Assembly: GCA_011051425.1 (NCBI GenBank) | Contig: DRLF01000291.1 | Coordinates: forward strand, 1-11,363 | From: Thiolapillus brandeum | Lineage (GTDB): Bacteria > Pseudomonadota > Gammaproteobacteria > Chromatiales > Chromatiaceae | Direction of reading: 5' to 3' | DNA: 11,363 bases | Shown here: positions 402-7,661 of the stretch, in pieces | Position numbering within the stretch: position 1 is the stretch's first letter | Layout: each line of letters begins with the position of its first letter | Position numbers and translations under genes: made by a program | The notes under the pieces: model-generated | The model's database searches: none | The model's input: only the letters and a program-made list of their open reading frames with translations | What the model was told of the DNA's origin: nothing

Positions 402-430
402 TGTCAACCAGATGGCCGCTCATCCGTTTA
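402..430 (+). promoter_or_regulatory. Candidate ECF-sigma promoter, copy 1 (autoregulatory)
   Basis: GTCAACC at 403-409 is followed after exactly 15 bases by CGTTTA at 425-430, upstream of the sigma-factor gene. An AAC core in the -35 box and a CGT core in the -10 box, 16 bases apart, is the usual layout of ECF-sigma promoters. The same two half-sites with the same spacing recur at 2122-2149 before the DUF1800 gene. A start site about 7 bases after the -10 box leaves a leader of about 40 bases to the ATG at 477. The regulatory reading is inferred; the repeated motif is directly visible. Confidence 0.5.
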
Positions 431-476
431 TACAACACAAAACCCCAATTTGACAGATAAACGCGCAGGCCAGATT

Positions 477-1061
477 ATGCAGGCAACGCTTTGCTTTTCC
501 AGCATGGAGACACAGATCAAGGCAGACGAGCACACCCGGCGACGCTACCTGGAGCAGTTTCTGGCCCAGGTGGAAAGGCGCGCCCTGATCATGGCCGAAA
601 TAGCCACGAGCAGCCGGGAAGAGGCGCTCGACCTGGTGCAGGACAGCATGCTGGCGTTTGCAACAAAATATGCCAGGAAACCGCAAAGCGACTGGACACC
701 ATTGTTCTATCGCATCTTGCAAAACCGTATTCGCGACTGGTACCGTCGCAATGCAGTGCGTAACCGCTGGAAAGGCTGGCTGGGCTTTCCTGAAGACAAT
801 GGAGACCCCATACAATCGGCACCTGACCCGCACAGCGTTCTGCCGGAGGACGAGATACACAGGGACGAATCCGGAGATGCCATCGCAAAAGCAGTGGGTA
901 AACTCCCCCTGCGGCAGCAGCAGGCGTTTCTGCTGCGGATCTGGGAAGGGCTTGACGTGGCCGCGACCGCAAAAGCCATGGGCTGTTCGCAAGGCAGTGT
1001 CAAGACACATCTGTCCCGCGCCATGGCCTCATTGCGCGGGCAATTGCAGGAGTATCGCTAA
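477..1061 (+). CDS. ECF-type RNA polymerase sigma factor (sigma-70 family)
   Basis: This is a 194-residue alternative sigma factor with only regions 2 and 4. Region 2 spans about residues 25-95: DLVQDSMLAF at 52-61, then the helix ending RDWYRR at 86-91. Region 4 spans about 132-190, with a helix-turn-helix from LDVAATAKAMGCSQGSVKTH (159-178) into LSRAMASLR. The linker at 105-132 is acidic. It would direct RNA polymerase to a specific promoter class. Three in-frame starts exist: TTG at 450, ATG at 477 and ATG at 504. I chose 477 because a weak AGG lies 7 bases upstream and the candidate promoter would leave a sensible leader; 504 is also possible. The stop codon overlaps the next start by one base (TAATG). 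No zinc-binding anti-sigma gene follows; the partner is probably the next gene. Confidence 0.88.
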   Translation: MQATLCFSSMETQIKADEHTRRRYLEQFLAQVERRALIMAEIATSSREEALDLVQDSMLAFATKYARKPQSDWTPLFYRILQNRIRDWYRRNAVRNRWKGWLGFPEDNGDPIQSAPDPHSVLPEDEIHRDESGDAIAKAVGKLPLRQQQAFLLRIWEGLDVAATAKAMGCSQGSVKTHLSRAMASLRGQLQEYR

Positions 1062-1414
1062 TGCAGTCTTTTGAAGAAAATCTGAAAAAGTCACTGGACA
1101 ATAAGGCTGCATCCCTGGATGCAGCAACCCTGTCCCGTTTGCATCGCGCCCGTGTCAAGGCACTGGAAACCTCCCCACCCTGGTGGAAACAGCCCGCCGT
1201 TTATGCACCTGTCCTTGGCAGTGCCGCCGCAGTCGCGGCCTATCTGTTGCTGTCCACTTACTACCTGGACAGCAACCTCATACAAACGACGGTCAGCAGT
1301 GATCCGGTCGAAGCCATGGAAATCATCAGCCTGGATGTTGACCTGGAACTCGTGGAGGAACTGGACTTTTATGACTGGCTGGCACAACAGGAGGATCAGG
1401 AGAAGGATGCGTGA
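1061..1414 (+). CDS. Single-pass membrane protein, candidate anti-sigma factor
   Basis: This 117-residue protein has three parts. The N-terminal part (1-45) looks cytoplasmic and helical, with LDAATLSRLHRARVKALE at 19-36, a pattern seen in short proteins (DUF3619-like) that follow sigma-factor genes. One transmembrane helix lies at about 46-69. The outer tail (70-117) is very acidic: about 15 D/E against one K. There is no HxxxCxxC zinc motif and no cysteine at all, so it is not a classic zinc anti-sigma factor. Position directly after the sigma gene with a one-base overlap, and the topology, suggest it holds the sigma factor at the membrane and senses something outside. That role is inferred from context. 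It overlaps the next gene by four bases (GTGA). Confidence 0.7.
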   Translation: MQSFEENLKKSLDNKAASLDAATLSRLHRARVKALETSPPWWKQPAVYAPVLGSAAAVAAYLLLSTYYLDSNLIQTTVSSDPVEAMEIISLDVDLELVEELDFYDWLAQQEDQEKDA

Positions 1415-1656
1415 TCATTCCACCCTGGTTCTTGTTGCTGCTGTCGGTGGAGACACTGCCTCCAGCCACGGCACATGCCCCCGGATACCCGTCGCTGGAA
1501 TTGCTGGAGTATATCGGCGCCATGGAAGAGACTGAAGATGGCGAGCTGGTGGATCCCCTGGACGCCGTTCCCGCCCAGAACAACCCTGAACAGGGTGACA
1601 GATCCGATGGCGACAAGCCATCTGCAACAAAGGAAGGGGCGCATGAAACACCCTAA
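1411..1656 (+). CDS. Small acidic exported protein of the sigma-factor operon
   Basis: This is an 81-residue protein starting with GTG. The start is supported by a strong AGGAG seven bases upstream (1399-1403) and by the four-base overlap with the preceding gene. Residues 1-23 form a short hydrophobic signal-like segment ending in AHA. The mature part begins with PSLELLEYIGAMEE (27-40), continues EDGELVDPL, and ends in a low-complexity polar tail. It has about 15 acidic residues against 3 basic ones. Short proteins with an LELLEY-like helix accompany sigma factor/DUF3106 operons in related bacteria (recalled, not searched). Its function is unknown. The acidic character and gene order suggest a periplasmic partner of the basic DUF3106 protein. 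It overlaps the DUF3106 gene by 14 bases. Confidence 0.65.
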   Translation: MIIPPWFLLLLSVETLPPATAHAPGYPSLELLEYIGAMEETEDGELVDPLDAVPAQNNPEQGDRSDGDKPSATKEGAHETP

Positions 1657-2113
1657 GCTGCTGCTGGCGTCGTTACTGATTTTTGCCCTGAGCGGCCAGG
1701 TTCTGCCTGCAGCGGAATCGATACCCTGGGACACATTGACACCCCAGCAGCAGAAAATACTGCGATCGGCAAAAGACCGCTGGGACAGTTTCTCCATTGA
1801 AAAGCAACGCCTGCTCGAGGCCGGGGCATCCCGCTGGCAGGACATGACGCCGGAGCAGCGCGCCAGGGCGCGGAAAAACCTGAAACGCTGGAAAAAGATG
1901 ACGCCGGAACAGCGCAGAAAGTTCAGACAACGCCTGAAAAAGTTCAGGAATCTTCCACCGGAAAAAAGACGTAAGCTGCGCGAATATCGCAACTGGTTCC
2001 AGCAACTGCCTCCCAAGCGTAAGCAGGAACTGCGCAAACGCTGGAAAAACATGACACCTGAGGAAAGACGCCGGCGTCTGGACAAGTTGCCACCCCATCC
2101 TCCCGAAAACTGA
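1643..2113 (+). CDS. DUF3106 exported basic repeat protein
   Basis: This is a 156-residue protein with a signal peptide at 1-24 (hydrophobic core LLLASLLIFALSG, cleavage near LPAA). The mature part consists of helical repeats, with an aromatic residue at 29, 47, 65, 83, 101 and 119, an exact 18-residue spacing. A shorter last unit has W134. The best-preserved units read RWxxMTPEQR. This M/L-[TP]-P-[EQ]-[QKE]-R pattern is typical of DUF3106, a family of unknown function in Proteobacteria. It is strongly basic, with about 41 K/R and 16 D/E in the mature part. The start at ATG 1643 is chosen over a longer frame because AGGAAGGGG precedes it and it gives a proper signal peptide. It is the last gene of the sigma-factor operon and probably acts in the periplasm. 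No clear terminator follows. Confidence 0.85.
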   Translation: MKHPKLLLASLLIFALSGQVLPAAESIPWDTLTPQQQKILRSAKDRWDSFSIEKQRLLEAGASRWQDMTPEQRARARKNLKRWKKMTPEQRRKFRQRLKKFRNLPPEKRRKLREYRNWFQQLPPKRKQELRKRWKNMTPEERRRRLDKLPPHPPEN

Positions 2114-2121
2114 ACAGCCAG

Positions 2122-2149
2122 GTCAACCAAATCGACTCTGCGGCGTTTA
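2122..2149 (+). promoter_or_regulatory. Candidate ECF-sigma promoter, copy 2 (DUF1800/DUF1501 operon)
   Basis: GTCAACC at 2122-2128, 15 bases, then CGTTTA at 2144-2149. Both half-sites and the spacing are identical to the site before the sigma-factor gene at 403-430, while the spacer differs at most positions. It ends 33 bases before the DUF1800 ATG, the right distance for a promoter. The sigma factor encoded just upstream is the obvious candidate to read it. Confidence 0.5.
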
Positions 2150-2182: not shown

Positions 2183-3688
2183 ATGTCAAATCCACGCAGA
2201 TACTTTGTCACAAAGAGTGCAGCCATGGTTGCACTGTTTTCGACCGGAATGGCAAAGGTGCCAGACGCTCGGGCCAGCACACGCAACAGCGATGCACTGC
2301 CGCCCCCCGACCCCGATACGCTGACCCTGAACCGCTGCACCTTTGGCGTCAGCAATGAGCTGATCGGCGAAATGCAGCGCAGAGGCCGGGAAAACTGGCT
2401 GGAGCGCCAGATGGACTGGGAAAGCATCGACGACCGGGAAACCAACGACTTCCTGCATCGCCAGACGCCCACGGTGTTCATGTCGGCGAAAGAGCTTGCG
2501 GCGTTGCCCAACAGGGGACAGGCCGCCAACGAGCTCAAGCAGGCCACCGTTTACCGCGCCATGTACAGCAACAGGCAGCTGTACGAAGTCATGGTGGAGT
2601 TCTGGTCCAACCATTTCAGCATCTACCACCGCGACGGGCCGGTCACTCTGCTCAAGACCCTGGATGACCGGAACGTGATCCGCCCCCATGCGCTGGGCAG
2701 TTTCCGCGACCTGCTGCATGCTTCGAGCAAGAGCCCGGCCATGCTCGTCTATCTCGACAACCACACCAACGTGGCCGGCACCCCCAACGAAAACTACGCG
2801 CGGGAACTCATGGAACTGCACACCCTGGGCGTAGACGGCGGCTACACGGAAACAGACGTGCAGGAGGTAGCGCGCTGCTTCACCGGCTGGGCCGTCGGCC
2901 GGCGCGGCAGCGGCAACATGGGTAATTTCCAGTTCTACCCCCGGCTTCATGACCAGGGTGAAAAAACCGTCCTGGGAACCGCCATTCCCGCCAACGGCGG
3001 CATCCGCGATGGCGAACAGGTCATCGACATGCTCGCCGGCCATCCTTCCACGGCCCGCTTTATTTCCACCAAGCTGGCGCGTCATTTCGTCGCCGACGAG
3101 CCACCGCAAGCCCTGGTCGACCGCCTGGCGCGAATCTTTCTGGACACCGACGGCGACATCCGGTCCCTGTTGCGGGAAATCTTTCTCAGCGACGAATTCC
3201 TGCGGTCCGCAGACCAGAAACTCAAGCGCCCCATGGAATACATCATCAGCGCCCTGCGCAGTACCCGGGCCAGCCCCGGCCCCCAGGCCTACCGCGGCGT
3301 GCGCCAATACCTGTTCGCCCTCGGGCAGATACCCTTCGACTGGGTGCCACCCGACGGCTATCCCGATGTCGCCGGCTACTGGACCTCCACCAACGGCCTG
3401 CTGAACCGCTGGAATTTCGCCAGCGCACTGGCCGGGTCGCGTCTGCCCGGTATACGGCTGGATTACCTGGCGCTCATCGGCAGGAACTGGCGCCCCGGAG
3501 CCCTGGTGGATCACCTGGCAGCCCGGTTGCTGCATCGGCCCCTGCTGGACGACGACAGGCGGTCGTTCATCGGCTACCTGGCCAGTGACAAGTCCGCCAC
3601 CAAAAGACTGCCCGTTGAAATCGTAGAAGAACGCGTGCCCGGGCTCATCGGCCTGATGCTGTCTTCCGATTACTTTCAATACCGCTAA
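2183..3688 (+). CDS. DUF1800 family exported protein
   Basis: This is a 501-residue protein that is full length for DUF1800. Visible family blocks are LNRCTFGVS (49-57), FWSNHFSI (140-147), MLVYLDNHTN (187-196), PNENYARELMELHTLGVDGG (201-220), ARCFTGW (230-236), TARFISTKLARHF (290-302), KRPMEYI (348-354) and DWVPPDGYPD (386-395). The N-terminus has RRYFV at 5-9, a hydrophobic stretch, and an ARA-S site near 29-32, so it resembles a Tat signal. The family's biochemical role is unknown. It is nearly always encoded beside a DUF1501 gene, as here, and the two probably act together outside the cytoplasm. AGGGGA precedes the ATG at 2183; an upstream ATG at 2164 is in another frame and was not used. 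The Shine-Dalgarno of the next gene overlaps this stop codon. Confidence 0.92.
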   Translation: MSNPRRYFVTKSAAMVALFSTGMAKVPDARASTRNSDALPPPDPDTLTLNRCTFGVSNELIGEMQRRGRENWLERQMDWESIDDRETNDFLHRQTPTVFMSAKELAALPNRGQAANELKQATVYRAMYSNRQLYEVMVEFWSNHFSIYHRDGPVTLLKTLDDRNVIRPHALGSFRDLLHASSKSPAMLVYLDNHTNVAGTPNENYARELMELHTLGVDGGYTETDVQEVARCFTGWAVGRRGSGNMGNFQFYPRLHDQGEKTVLGTAIPANGGIRDGEQVIDMLAGHPSTARFISTKLARHFVADEPPQALVDRLARIFLDTDGDIRSLLREIFLSDEFLRSADQKLKRPMEYIISALRSTRASPGPQAYRGVRQYLFALGQIPFDWVPPDGYPDVAGYWTSTNGLLNRWNFASALAGSRLPGIRLDYLALIGRNWRPGALVDHLAARLLHRPLLDDDRRSFIGYLASDKSATKRLPVEIVEERVPGLIGLMLSSDYFQYR

Positions 3689-3702: not shown

Positions 3703-4920
3703 ATGAAACTTTCCCGCAGAAATTTCCTGAAAATCACCGGCCTGGGCTCCGCCAGCGCCCTGGCGCCCCGCCTGCTGCTTGCCGCCGATGCCAGCGACAG
3801 CGCCGACGACATCATCATCAGCGTGTTTCTCAGAGGCGCCGCCGATGGTCTCAACATAATTCCACCCCACGGGGATGGCGACTACTACCGCCTGCGTCCC
3901 GGCCTGGCCATTGCACCGCCGGGAAACGAACAGGGCGCATTAGACCTCGATGGCTTCTTCGGTTTCCATCCCGGCATGGCCGCCCTGCTGCCCCTGTACC
4001 AGTCCGGGGAACTGGCCGTCATCCATGCCTGTGGCTCGCCCTCTCCCAGCCACTCCCACTTTGAAGCCCAGGATCTAATGGAGCGCGGCCTGACCACCAA
4101 CAACAGCAGCTTCAGCGGCTGGCTGGGGCGTTACCTGGACTACCGCATGGATGACAGCTTCGGCGTCTTCCACGCCCTGGGCATGGGAAATGCCGCGCCA
4201 CGCACCCTGGCCCACGATGCCTCCACCATCACCATGAACCGCATCGAGGACTTCTCCCTGCTGGTCCCCGAGGCGCAGAAAGCCGAAACCGAAGCCCTGC
4301 TGCAGGCATTGTATGCAGGAGACAGTCCGCTGGAAAACGGCGCCCGGGACACCCTCACCGCCGTGGACACCCTGGCTGCGGCTGATCCCGCGCAGTATCC
4401 GCCACAGAACGGCGCCACATACCCCGACACCGGCTTCGGCGCCCAGTTGCAGGCTGTCGGGCAGCTCATTCGCGCGGATGTGGGGGTGCGGGCGGCGGCG
4501 CTGAGCCTTGGCGGCTGGGACACACACCAGGGCGAATCGGCCACCCTGGACAACCTGCTGCCCGAGCTTGCCCAGAGCCTGGCGGCTTTCCACACGGACA
4601 TGGGTACAGCGATGGACAGGATCACCCTGGTCACTCACACGGAGTTCGGCCGCCGCGCCTACGAGAACGGTTCCGCCGGCACGGATCACGGCCATGCCAG
4701 TTTCGTGCTGACCCTGGGCGGCAACGTCAACGGCGGCAGGGTCTACCACGACTGGCCCGGACTGAGGGACCAGGATCTCTACGGCAAGGGCGACCTGGAA
4801 GTCACCATGGACTATCGAAACGTACTGGGCGAGCTGATCAGCAAGCGCACCCCCGGCATGCCCATGGAGCTGTTATTTCCGGATTTTGATCAGCTTCAGT
4901 TTGCCGGCATCTATACCTGA
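3703..4920 (+). CDS. DUF1501 family protein with Tat signal (alkaline-phosphatase-like fold)
   Basis: This is a 405-residue protein with an N-terminal twin-arginine signal SRRNFLK at 4-10, a hydrophobic region, and a likely cleavage after LLLAADA (about 30). It is therefore predicted to be exported folded, usually a sign of a bound cofactor or metal. DUF1501 motifs seen are FLRGAADGLN (42-51), SHSHFEAQDLMERG (116-129), GGWDTHQGE (270-278), THTEFGRRAYENG (311-323) and GTDHGH (326-331). The conserved D/H residues fit a metal site of the alkaline phosphatase/sulfatase superfamily, to which the family is related; no substrate is known. AAGGAG at 3688-3693 lies nine bases before the ATG. It is the second gene of the DUF1800/DUF1501 operon, 14 bases after the first, and the last before the terminator at 5028-5065. 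Confidence 0.93.
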   Translation: MKLSRRNFLKITGLGSASALAPRLLLAADASDSADDIIISVFLRGAADGLNIIPPHGDGDYYRLRPGLAIAPPGNEQGALDLDGFFGFHPGMAALLPLYQSGELAVIHACGSPSPSHSHFEAQDLMERGLTTNNSSFSGWLGRYLDYRMDDSFGVFHALGMGNAAPRTLAHDASTITMNRIEDFSLLVPEAQKAETEALLQALYAGDSPLENGARDTLTAVDTLAAADPAQYPPQNGATYPDTGFGAQLQAVGQLIRADVGVRAAALSLGGWDTHQGESATLDNLLPELAQSLAAFHTDMGTAMDRITLVTHTEFGRRAYENGSAGTDHGHASFVLTLGGNVNGGRVYHDWPGLRDQDLYGKGDLEVTMDYRNVLGELISKRTPGMPMELLFPDFDQLQFAGIYT

Positions 4921-5027: not shown

Positions 5028-5065
5028 AAAAAAAAGGCATGGTCGGTTACGACCATGCCCTTTTT
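5028..5065. terminator. Strong bidirectional rho-independent terminator
   Basis: GGCATGGTCG (5036-5045) pairs perfectly with CGACCATGCC (5050-5059) across a GTTA loop, giving a 10-bp stem. It is flanked by eight A on the left (5028-5035) and CTTTTT on the right (5060-5065). It can therefore stop the rightward DUF1800/DUF1501 transcript and the leftward clpB transcript, whose stop codon is about 20 bases away. Confidence 0.9.

Positions 5066-5084: not shown

Positions 5085-7661
<2,577 letters not shown>

Follow-up and report, generated by a model that had tools for sequence, protein, structure and literature searches.

Two matching promoter-like sites probably link an extracytoplasmic function sigma factor to a DUF1800/DUF1501 gene pair in Thiolapillus brandeum

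Does an extracytoplasmic function (ECF) sigma factor of Thiolapillus brandeum control, besides its own operon, an adjacent gene pair encoding DUF1800 and DUF1501 proteins, members of two large families without assigned function (at least 8000 and at least 7874 matches, respectively, each among about 8000 scored candidates)? The question arises from a stretch of 11,363 nucleotides (contig DRLF01000291.1 of assembly GCA_011051425.1; hereafter, the window), in which GTCAACC-N15-CGTTTA (N, any base) occurs exactly twice, both times on the plus strand, once upstream of the sigma gene and once upstream of the DUF1800 gene (Table 1). The initial annotation had reported these two copies and no further full match within the window, and both observations stand; the start that it gave for the region, 402, is one base early because the first copy begins at 403. 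Between the first copy and ATG 477 of the sigma gene lie 46 bases (19 to an alternative start, TTG 450), and 33 bases separate the second copy from ATG 2183 of the DUF1800 gene. The spacers of the two copies agree at 7 of 15 positions, so that their earlier description as differing at most positions only just holds; that the sites are not a duplicated segment is borne out. No exact match appeared in 200 dinucleotide shuffles of the window, and a search allowing up to three mismatches was uninformative (2 found vs 1.42 expected). The most likely explanation, to judge from the sequence comparisons described below, is that the ECF sigma factor regulates its own operon and a small set of genes for exported proteins, DUF1800/DUF1501 included.

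Within the draft genome of T. brandeum (2,742,667 bases in 479 contigs, 84% complete), the full pattern matches exactly at these two places only. This 13-base pattern is slightly over-specified: the final TA varies in relatives, and the seventh base is still C in 29 of 35 distinct sites, a comparison in which the search pattern itself fixed the core GTCAAC-N16-CGTT, making it invariant by design. Shortened to GTCAACC-N15-CGTT, it yields three sites, all ahead of genes, namely those for the sigma factor, the DUF1800 protein and a His-rich exported protein of 90 amino acids, with 21 (TTG 450) or 48 (ATG 477), 35 and 37 bases, respectively, from CGTT to the start. Random scattering inside genes, which the initial annotation had named as an outcome that would speak against its proposal, is therefore not what this genome displays. 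The looser pattern GTCAAC-N16/17-CGTT has nine sites, the other six of which are GTCAACA or GTCAACG variants and fall within open frames of 100 codons or more; since frames of that length (upstream extensions of their own genes or other overlaps) reach the three good sites too, the frame criterion by itself separates weakly. Homologues of the His-rich protein were found in 5 of 15 genomes of the genus, that of T. brandeum included, and in four of these five, 31-35 bases lie between the ATG and a preceding site, which in one genome is the GTCAACG variant. In genome G561 (G, L and C numbers are our labels for genomes, loci and contigs), the site is about 500 bases away from the His-rich gene, with an inverted-repeat insert between them; on the reverse complement of L337 (about 959-1486), what separates the two looks like an inverted-repeat element some 300 bases long.

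The putative regulator scores above the cut-offs of NF006550, TIGR02937 (sigma70-ECF) and PF08281 (region 4) and below that of PF04542 (region 2; 21.0 bits, cut-off 24), and the site upstream of its gene has the AAC in the -35 element and the CGT in the -10 element that are typical of promoters used by ECF factors for their own genes. Since relatives share the peptide that precedes ATG 477 (MTDKRAGQIM here; MTEKLAGRIM and MTQQQAGRIM elsewhere), TTG 450 is favoured as the start of the protein. A sigma-70-like promoter match, TTGACA-N17-GATTAT, overlaps the stretch 450-479. The first four genes, from sigma to DUF3106, overlap by 1, 4 and 14 bases and are followed by a gap of 69 bases before the DUF1800 gene. 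ATG 1061 of the DUF3619-like gene shares one base with the sigma stop codon, which is the arrangement of a small gene overlapping the sigma gene seen with AabA and CnrY. From this position and from the analogy to AabA (PMC12153292), the DUF3619-like protein is a probable membrane anti-sigma factor; its best 17-residue hydropathy value, from a scan that returned the two best windows only, is 1.74 at residues 49-65. The 81-residue protein encoded next, for which no match was found in Pfam or NCBIfam, is probably exported, given its hydrophobic N-terminus, and the DUF3106 protein is probably periplasmic.

Table 1. Predicted promoters, genes and hairpin of the sigma and DUF1800/DUF1501 region (window coordinates)
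Feature	Position	Strand	Details
Predicted ECF promoter of sigma operon	403..430	+	-35 GTCAACC 403-409, N15, -10 CGTTTA 425-430 (exact match)
ECF sigma factor, 194 amino acids from ATG 477 (TTG 450 alternative start)	477..1061	+	NF006550/PRK09047 223.5 bits (cut-off 173); PF08281 1e-15
DUF3619-like protein, 117 amino acids, hydrophobic stretch at about residues 47-65	1061..1414	+	PF12279 22.9 bits (cut-off 22.2); hydropathy
Small protein, 81 amino acids, hydrophobic N-terminus	1411..1656	+	Overlaps both neighbouring genes
DUF3106 protein, 156 amino acids, signal-like N-terminus	1643..2113	+	PF11304 5e-28; hydropathy
Predicted ECF promoter of DUF1800/DUF1501	2122..2149	+	-35 GTCAACC 2122-2128, N15, -10 CGTTTA 2144-2149; in the 69-base gap after the DUF3106 gene
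DUF1800 protein, 501 amino acids, twin-arginine-like N-terminus	2183..3688	+	PF08811 3.8e-137, 458.3 bits (cut-off 26.1)
DUF1501 protein, 405 amino acids, twin-arginine-like N-terminus	3703..4920	+	PF07394 1.3e-32, 113.9 bits (cut-off 27)
Terminator-like hairpin after DUF1501	5036..5059	+	10-pair stem, T-rich tail

Is the site conserved where the sigma factor is? The sigma factor was found in 39 of 195 genomes of the same order, that of T. brandeum included, and in 37 of the 38 relatives GTCAAC-N16-CGTT lies within 900 bases upstream of its gene on the coding strand. The controls gave 3 sites on the minus strand, all at loci with a divergent gene (G182, G124 and G032), and 0-1 for wrong spacings and scrambled patterns. 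A set of 80 named loci, which shares organisms with the 38 relatives and is not independent of them, has the core upstream of sigma in 70 cases (62 with a 16-base and 8 with a 17-base spacer; controls 0-2). The site is 500 to 830 bases away from the sigma gene in ten loci, and in nine of them (L057, L065, L072, L073, L075, L076, L077, L081 and L085) a gene for a small exported protein follows it; behind the site of the tenth, L058, no such gene was recognised. Several loci have peculiarities of their own. L070 (G124) and L074 (G032) contain back-to-back divergent sites serving sigma and an exported protein with DRGDRIE repeats. The sigma operon of L088 (G066) includes two copies of one open frame amid pieces of the DUF3619-like gene, and its sigma spans two frames. 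G113 (L054 and L089) has the sigma gene twice: the C125 copy is almost full-length, and that on C158, cut by the contig end, is 85% identical to the window sigma over its last 66 residues and is the copy ahead of DUF1800.

Upstream of DUF1800, conservation was assessed in 46 genomes, 23 of which contain a total of 48 DUF1800 matches, and the upstream regions of 30 of these matches were read. Ten genomes have the site before DUF1800 (G000, G024, G078, G113, G182, G026, G028, G034, G036 and G039). Nine of the regions score 20.9-30.9 with a position weight matrix and 20 others at most 2.2, the G113 site having been seen directly in its locus; the matrix was trained on core-selected sites, so that its invariant positions are imposed, and served only to rank DUF1800 upstream regions. 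The stretch scanned ran from 350 bases upstream to 250 bases inside the stop-to-stop frame, and promoters further up an operon are thus missed, as in G199. The 20 read regions without a site mostly belong to longer paralogues and to copies in congeners that lack the sigma factor, and for the 18 unread matches the complete strict-site lists of their genomes contain no site nearby. Together with the counts upstream of sigma, these results run contrary to the second outcome by which the initial annotation would have been called into question, namely lack of conservation before the same genes in relatives.

The position and genomic context of these sites are informative. In G024, G113, G078 and L193, the core site is at the equivalent place before DUF1800. 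DUF1800 and sigma are on different contigs in G026, G028, G034 and G036, and on the same contig, 1.1 Mb apart, in G039; in G182, the two genes are divergent, with one site per strand. G155, which belongs to the same genus as the former five, encodes the sigma factor; DUF1800 was not found in it, and none of its five sites has the spacer of the DUF1800 sites of those genomes. As the DUF1800 proteins of G026, G034, G036, G039 and G182 are only 37-42% identical to that of the window over about 300 residues and are without the twin-arginine start (G028 was not compared), the promoter accompanies two distinct DUF1800 lineages.

At the level of the class, a close relative of the window DUF1800 is present in 13 of 369 genomes, that of T. 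brandeum included. Four of the 12 other loci lack upstream sequence (G242, G495, G209 and G559), leaving eight testable. A site is found upstream of DUF1800 in G325 and G558, and none in G377, G320, G219, G207 and G195. In G199 (L305, reverse strand from 5835), a site with a 17-base spacer heads two genes of plastocyanin type (the first matches PF00127; the second was recognised by eye), DUF1800 and DUF1501, all in one direction. The link between site and DUF1800 accordingly extends to other families through G558, G325 and G199. The sigma factor was detected in G199, G377, G320 and G558 and in none of the other eight genomes, so that the link is seen in two of four sigma-bearing genomes and, among the four testable sigma-less ones, in G325 only. 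A further site of G325 (L357) precedes the gene for a small exported basic protein.

Site numbers also follow the presence of the sigma factor. GTCAACC-N15-CGTT occurs 156 times in the 39 sigma-bearing genomes (vs 106 for the reversed pattern) and 29 times in 20 of the 156 sigma-less genomes (vs 54). Within the genus, a site-bearing DUF1800 is present in 5 of the 6 genomes with the sigma factor and in none of the 7 without it (Fisher p 0.005), a value that is indicative only, because the genomes are related, kinship is uncorrected and two of the seven are without any DUF1800. One congener without a detectable sigma factor (85% complete) has a well-formed site at L317 (G184:C34:671). Forty chosen places were fetched, 34 of which are sites outside sigma loci out of the 156, in a choice that favoured conserved-looking ones. 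Genes preceded by a site encode, besides those named above, Gly-rich small proteins, DRGDRIE-like-repeat proteins, glycine-zipper lipoproteins, an EF-hand protein and DUF4382 lipoproteins, which represent a selection from the fetched sites rather than a count; DUF4382-like, Gly-rich and DRGDRIE proteins recur in separate families, as judged by eye. Five genomes of other families contain 26 sites (vs 19 for the reversed pattern), 11 of which precede sigma, DUF1800 or a signal-bearing protein; behind four, nothing was recognised.

Several observations weigh against control of DUF1800 and of its own operon by this sigma factor. The remaining 11 of those 26 sites overlap long frames, and about 10 of the 34 fetched sites lie inside long frames and look like chance matches (L157, L165, L179-L182 and L184-L187). 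No site was found within 900 bases upstream of sigma in G001, which has the most divergent sigma (42% identity), or in 10 of the 80 named loci, including L230, with only 123 upstream bases. The link between sigma and DUF1800 is not universal among relatives: G094, G068, G006 and G015, and likewise G377 and G320 in the wider class, have both proteins and no site before DUF1800. Conversely, G325 (95% complete) has the DUF1800 site and no sigma match at E <= 1e-25.

The case of G325 bears on the alternative that survives best, which we nevertheless consider unlikely, namely that both sites are ECF promoters, the one before DUF1800 being read by another sigma factor, and that the window sigma controls only itself. 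The T. brandeum genome does contain five other, weaker sigma-like matches that would be compatible with this. Yet the same core precedes the window-type sigma in nearly all relatives examined, and both the number of sites and, within the genus, the site-bearing DUF1800 go with the presence of this sigma factor. Less probable still is that DUF1800/DUF1501 form the tail of one long operon transcribed from the first site, with the second site unused. The gap between the DUF3106 and DUF1800 genes is just 69 bases, and a hairpin scan listed no plus-strand terminator-like hairpin in it, but the site persists before DUF1800 genes that are divergent from sigma (G182) or away from it (five genomes), which transcription running on from the sigma operon cannot reach. 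That the second match arose by chance, or binds something other than a sigma factor, is highly improbable, for although thirteen bases were specified after the fact and similar sites occur inside genes of other genomes, the shuffles gave none and the site keeps its position across further genera and families.

Control of both units by the window sigma factor, as the initial annotation had proposed, is thus favoured by the sites in the T. brandeum genome and in relatives, and a characterised system offers a model for it. According to its description (PMC12153292), SigAb of Acinetobacter baumannii has a promoter core of GTCAAC and CGTT, established by point mutagenesis, 5' rapid amplification of cDNA ends and chromatin immunoprecipitation sequencing, with a spacing of 17 bases and 16 tolerated. 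The same paper states that anti-sigma activity resides in two further products of the operon, one a small membrane protein and the other periplasmic, that copper is the inducer and that the direct regulon comprises sigAb, relA and the small RNA SabS. The window sites share this core (GTCAAC, 16-17 bases, CGTT) and can be classed as SigAb-type promoters. Like SigAb-AabA-AabB, with its sigma factor, small membrane protein (AabA, 107 amino acids) and periplasmic protein, the window has overlapping genes for a sigma factor, a probable small membrane protein (DUF3619-like, 117 amino acids) and a probable periplasmic protein in an apparently autoregulated operon, and in both genomes few sites lie ahead of genes. 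Because of this common core and similar operon, we read the window sites as promoters of the sigma factor and the genes next to it as a putative anti-sigma system. The regulons differ, that predicted here consisting of DUF1800/DUF1501 and small exported proteins (cf. PMC12153292). SigAb is described by its authors as Acinetobacter-specific (PMC12153292); the same core in Acinetobacter and before this sigma factor in many Gammaproteobacteria suggests that the SigAb promoter is not an isolated case. The likeness drawn here concerns promoter core and operon layout, and the copper response was shown for SigAb only.

Two other systems have a comparable layout. CnrH-CnrY-CnrX of Cupriavidus metallidurans combines an ECF sigma factor, a small membrane anti-sigma factor and a periplasmic sensor, CnrX being the periplasmic part of the Cnr system; Cnr confers cobalt-nickel resistance, and CnrH matches the window sigma only weakly (E 2.4e-4, row 27 of 29). 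The SigAb paper likens its AabA-SigAb model to CnrY-CnrH (PMC12153292). RpoE-RseA-RseB of Escherichia coli likewise consists of sigma, membrane anti-sigma and periplasmic partner; RpoE matches the window sigma at E 3.5e-7, and its promoter is different (-35 GGAACTT, -10 TCAAA, as quoted in PMC12153292).

Taken as a whole, the explanation that both sites are promoters read by the window sigma factor, with an anti-sigma system and a regulon of exported proteins, is in our judgement very probable. RNA polymerase with the ECF sigma factor (477-1061) would read both sites as promoters. The DUF3619-like protein would probably keep the sigma factor at the membrane, and the 81-residue protein and the DUF3106 protein would presumably form the periplasmic part of the sensor, until a signal at the cell envelope, perhaps copper or another metal, sets the sigma factor free. 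Once freed, it would transcribe its own operon, in a positive feedback, and also separate units, the DUF1800/DUF1501 pair and, elsewhere, the gene for the His-rich exported protein. We infer direct transcription by the window sigma, the anti-sigma roles and the signal, as well as the function of DUF1800/DUF1501 suggested below. Autoregulated ECF sigma factors are well known, and this system would be one more of them, with an uncharacterised regulon. More speculatively, SigAb could be one outlying example of a widespread gammaproteobacterial GTCAAC/CGTT ECF family controlling an envelope metal-stress regulon of mostly uncharacterised exported proteins (DUF1800/DUF1501, DUF4382 lipoproteins, Gly-rich, DRGDRIE-repeat and His-rich proteins), with DUF1800/DUF1501 as an exported enzyme pair of the copper or metal response; the latter part is based on the plastocyanin-like genes that share a site with DUF1800 and DUF1501 in G199, and we hold the proposal to be doubtful in its entirety.

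What might the two proteins do? Twin-arginine export is suggested by their N-termini: R5 and R6 of DUF1800 are nearly invariant among homologues, and in DUF1501 R6 is invariant and R5 nearly so, its score against PF10518 (TAT_signal) being 19.2 bits, under the cut-off of 22.7. The structure model of DUF1800 (predicted local distance difference test score, pLDDT, 88.6) predicts a predominantly helical fold, to which no solved structure is clearly related, and DUF1501 (pLDDT 88.2) models as an alkaline-phosphatase-superfamily fold. Residues D48, S118, H119, D273, H275, D328 and H329 of DUF1501, candidates for the metal ligands and nucleophile of an active site, are invariant in 42 sequences. Our best guess is an exported enzyme of the alkaline phosphatase superfamily with a helical partner. 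Pairs of the same two neighbouring families adjoin bacterial chitin synthase genes, with a twin-arginine signal on DUF1501, and the available passages of that report mention no sigma factor or promoter (PMC5122149). In the open-licence literature searched, we found no link between DUF1800 and an ECF factor (two papers name both DUF1800 and a sigma factor, without joining them in the passages seen), and no mention of DUF3106, of DUF3619, of an ECF sigma factor with DUF3106 or of an ECF sigma factor and a promoter motif together with DUF1501. Having a promoter, a regulator and co-regulated genes to work with makes the function of DUF1800/DUF1501 experimentally approachable, since whatever induces the sigma factor can be sought directly. 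The exported proteins encoded downstream of such sites may belong to an envelope response that has gone unrecognised. Downstream, the minus strand carries an open frame of 858 codons at 5085-7661, convergent with DUF1501, which we take to encode a ClpB-type disaggregase.

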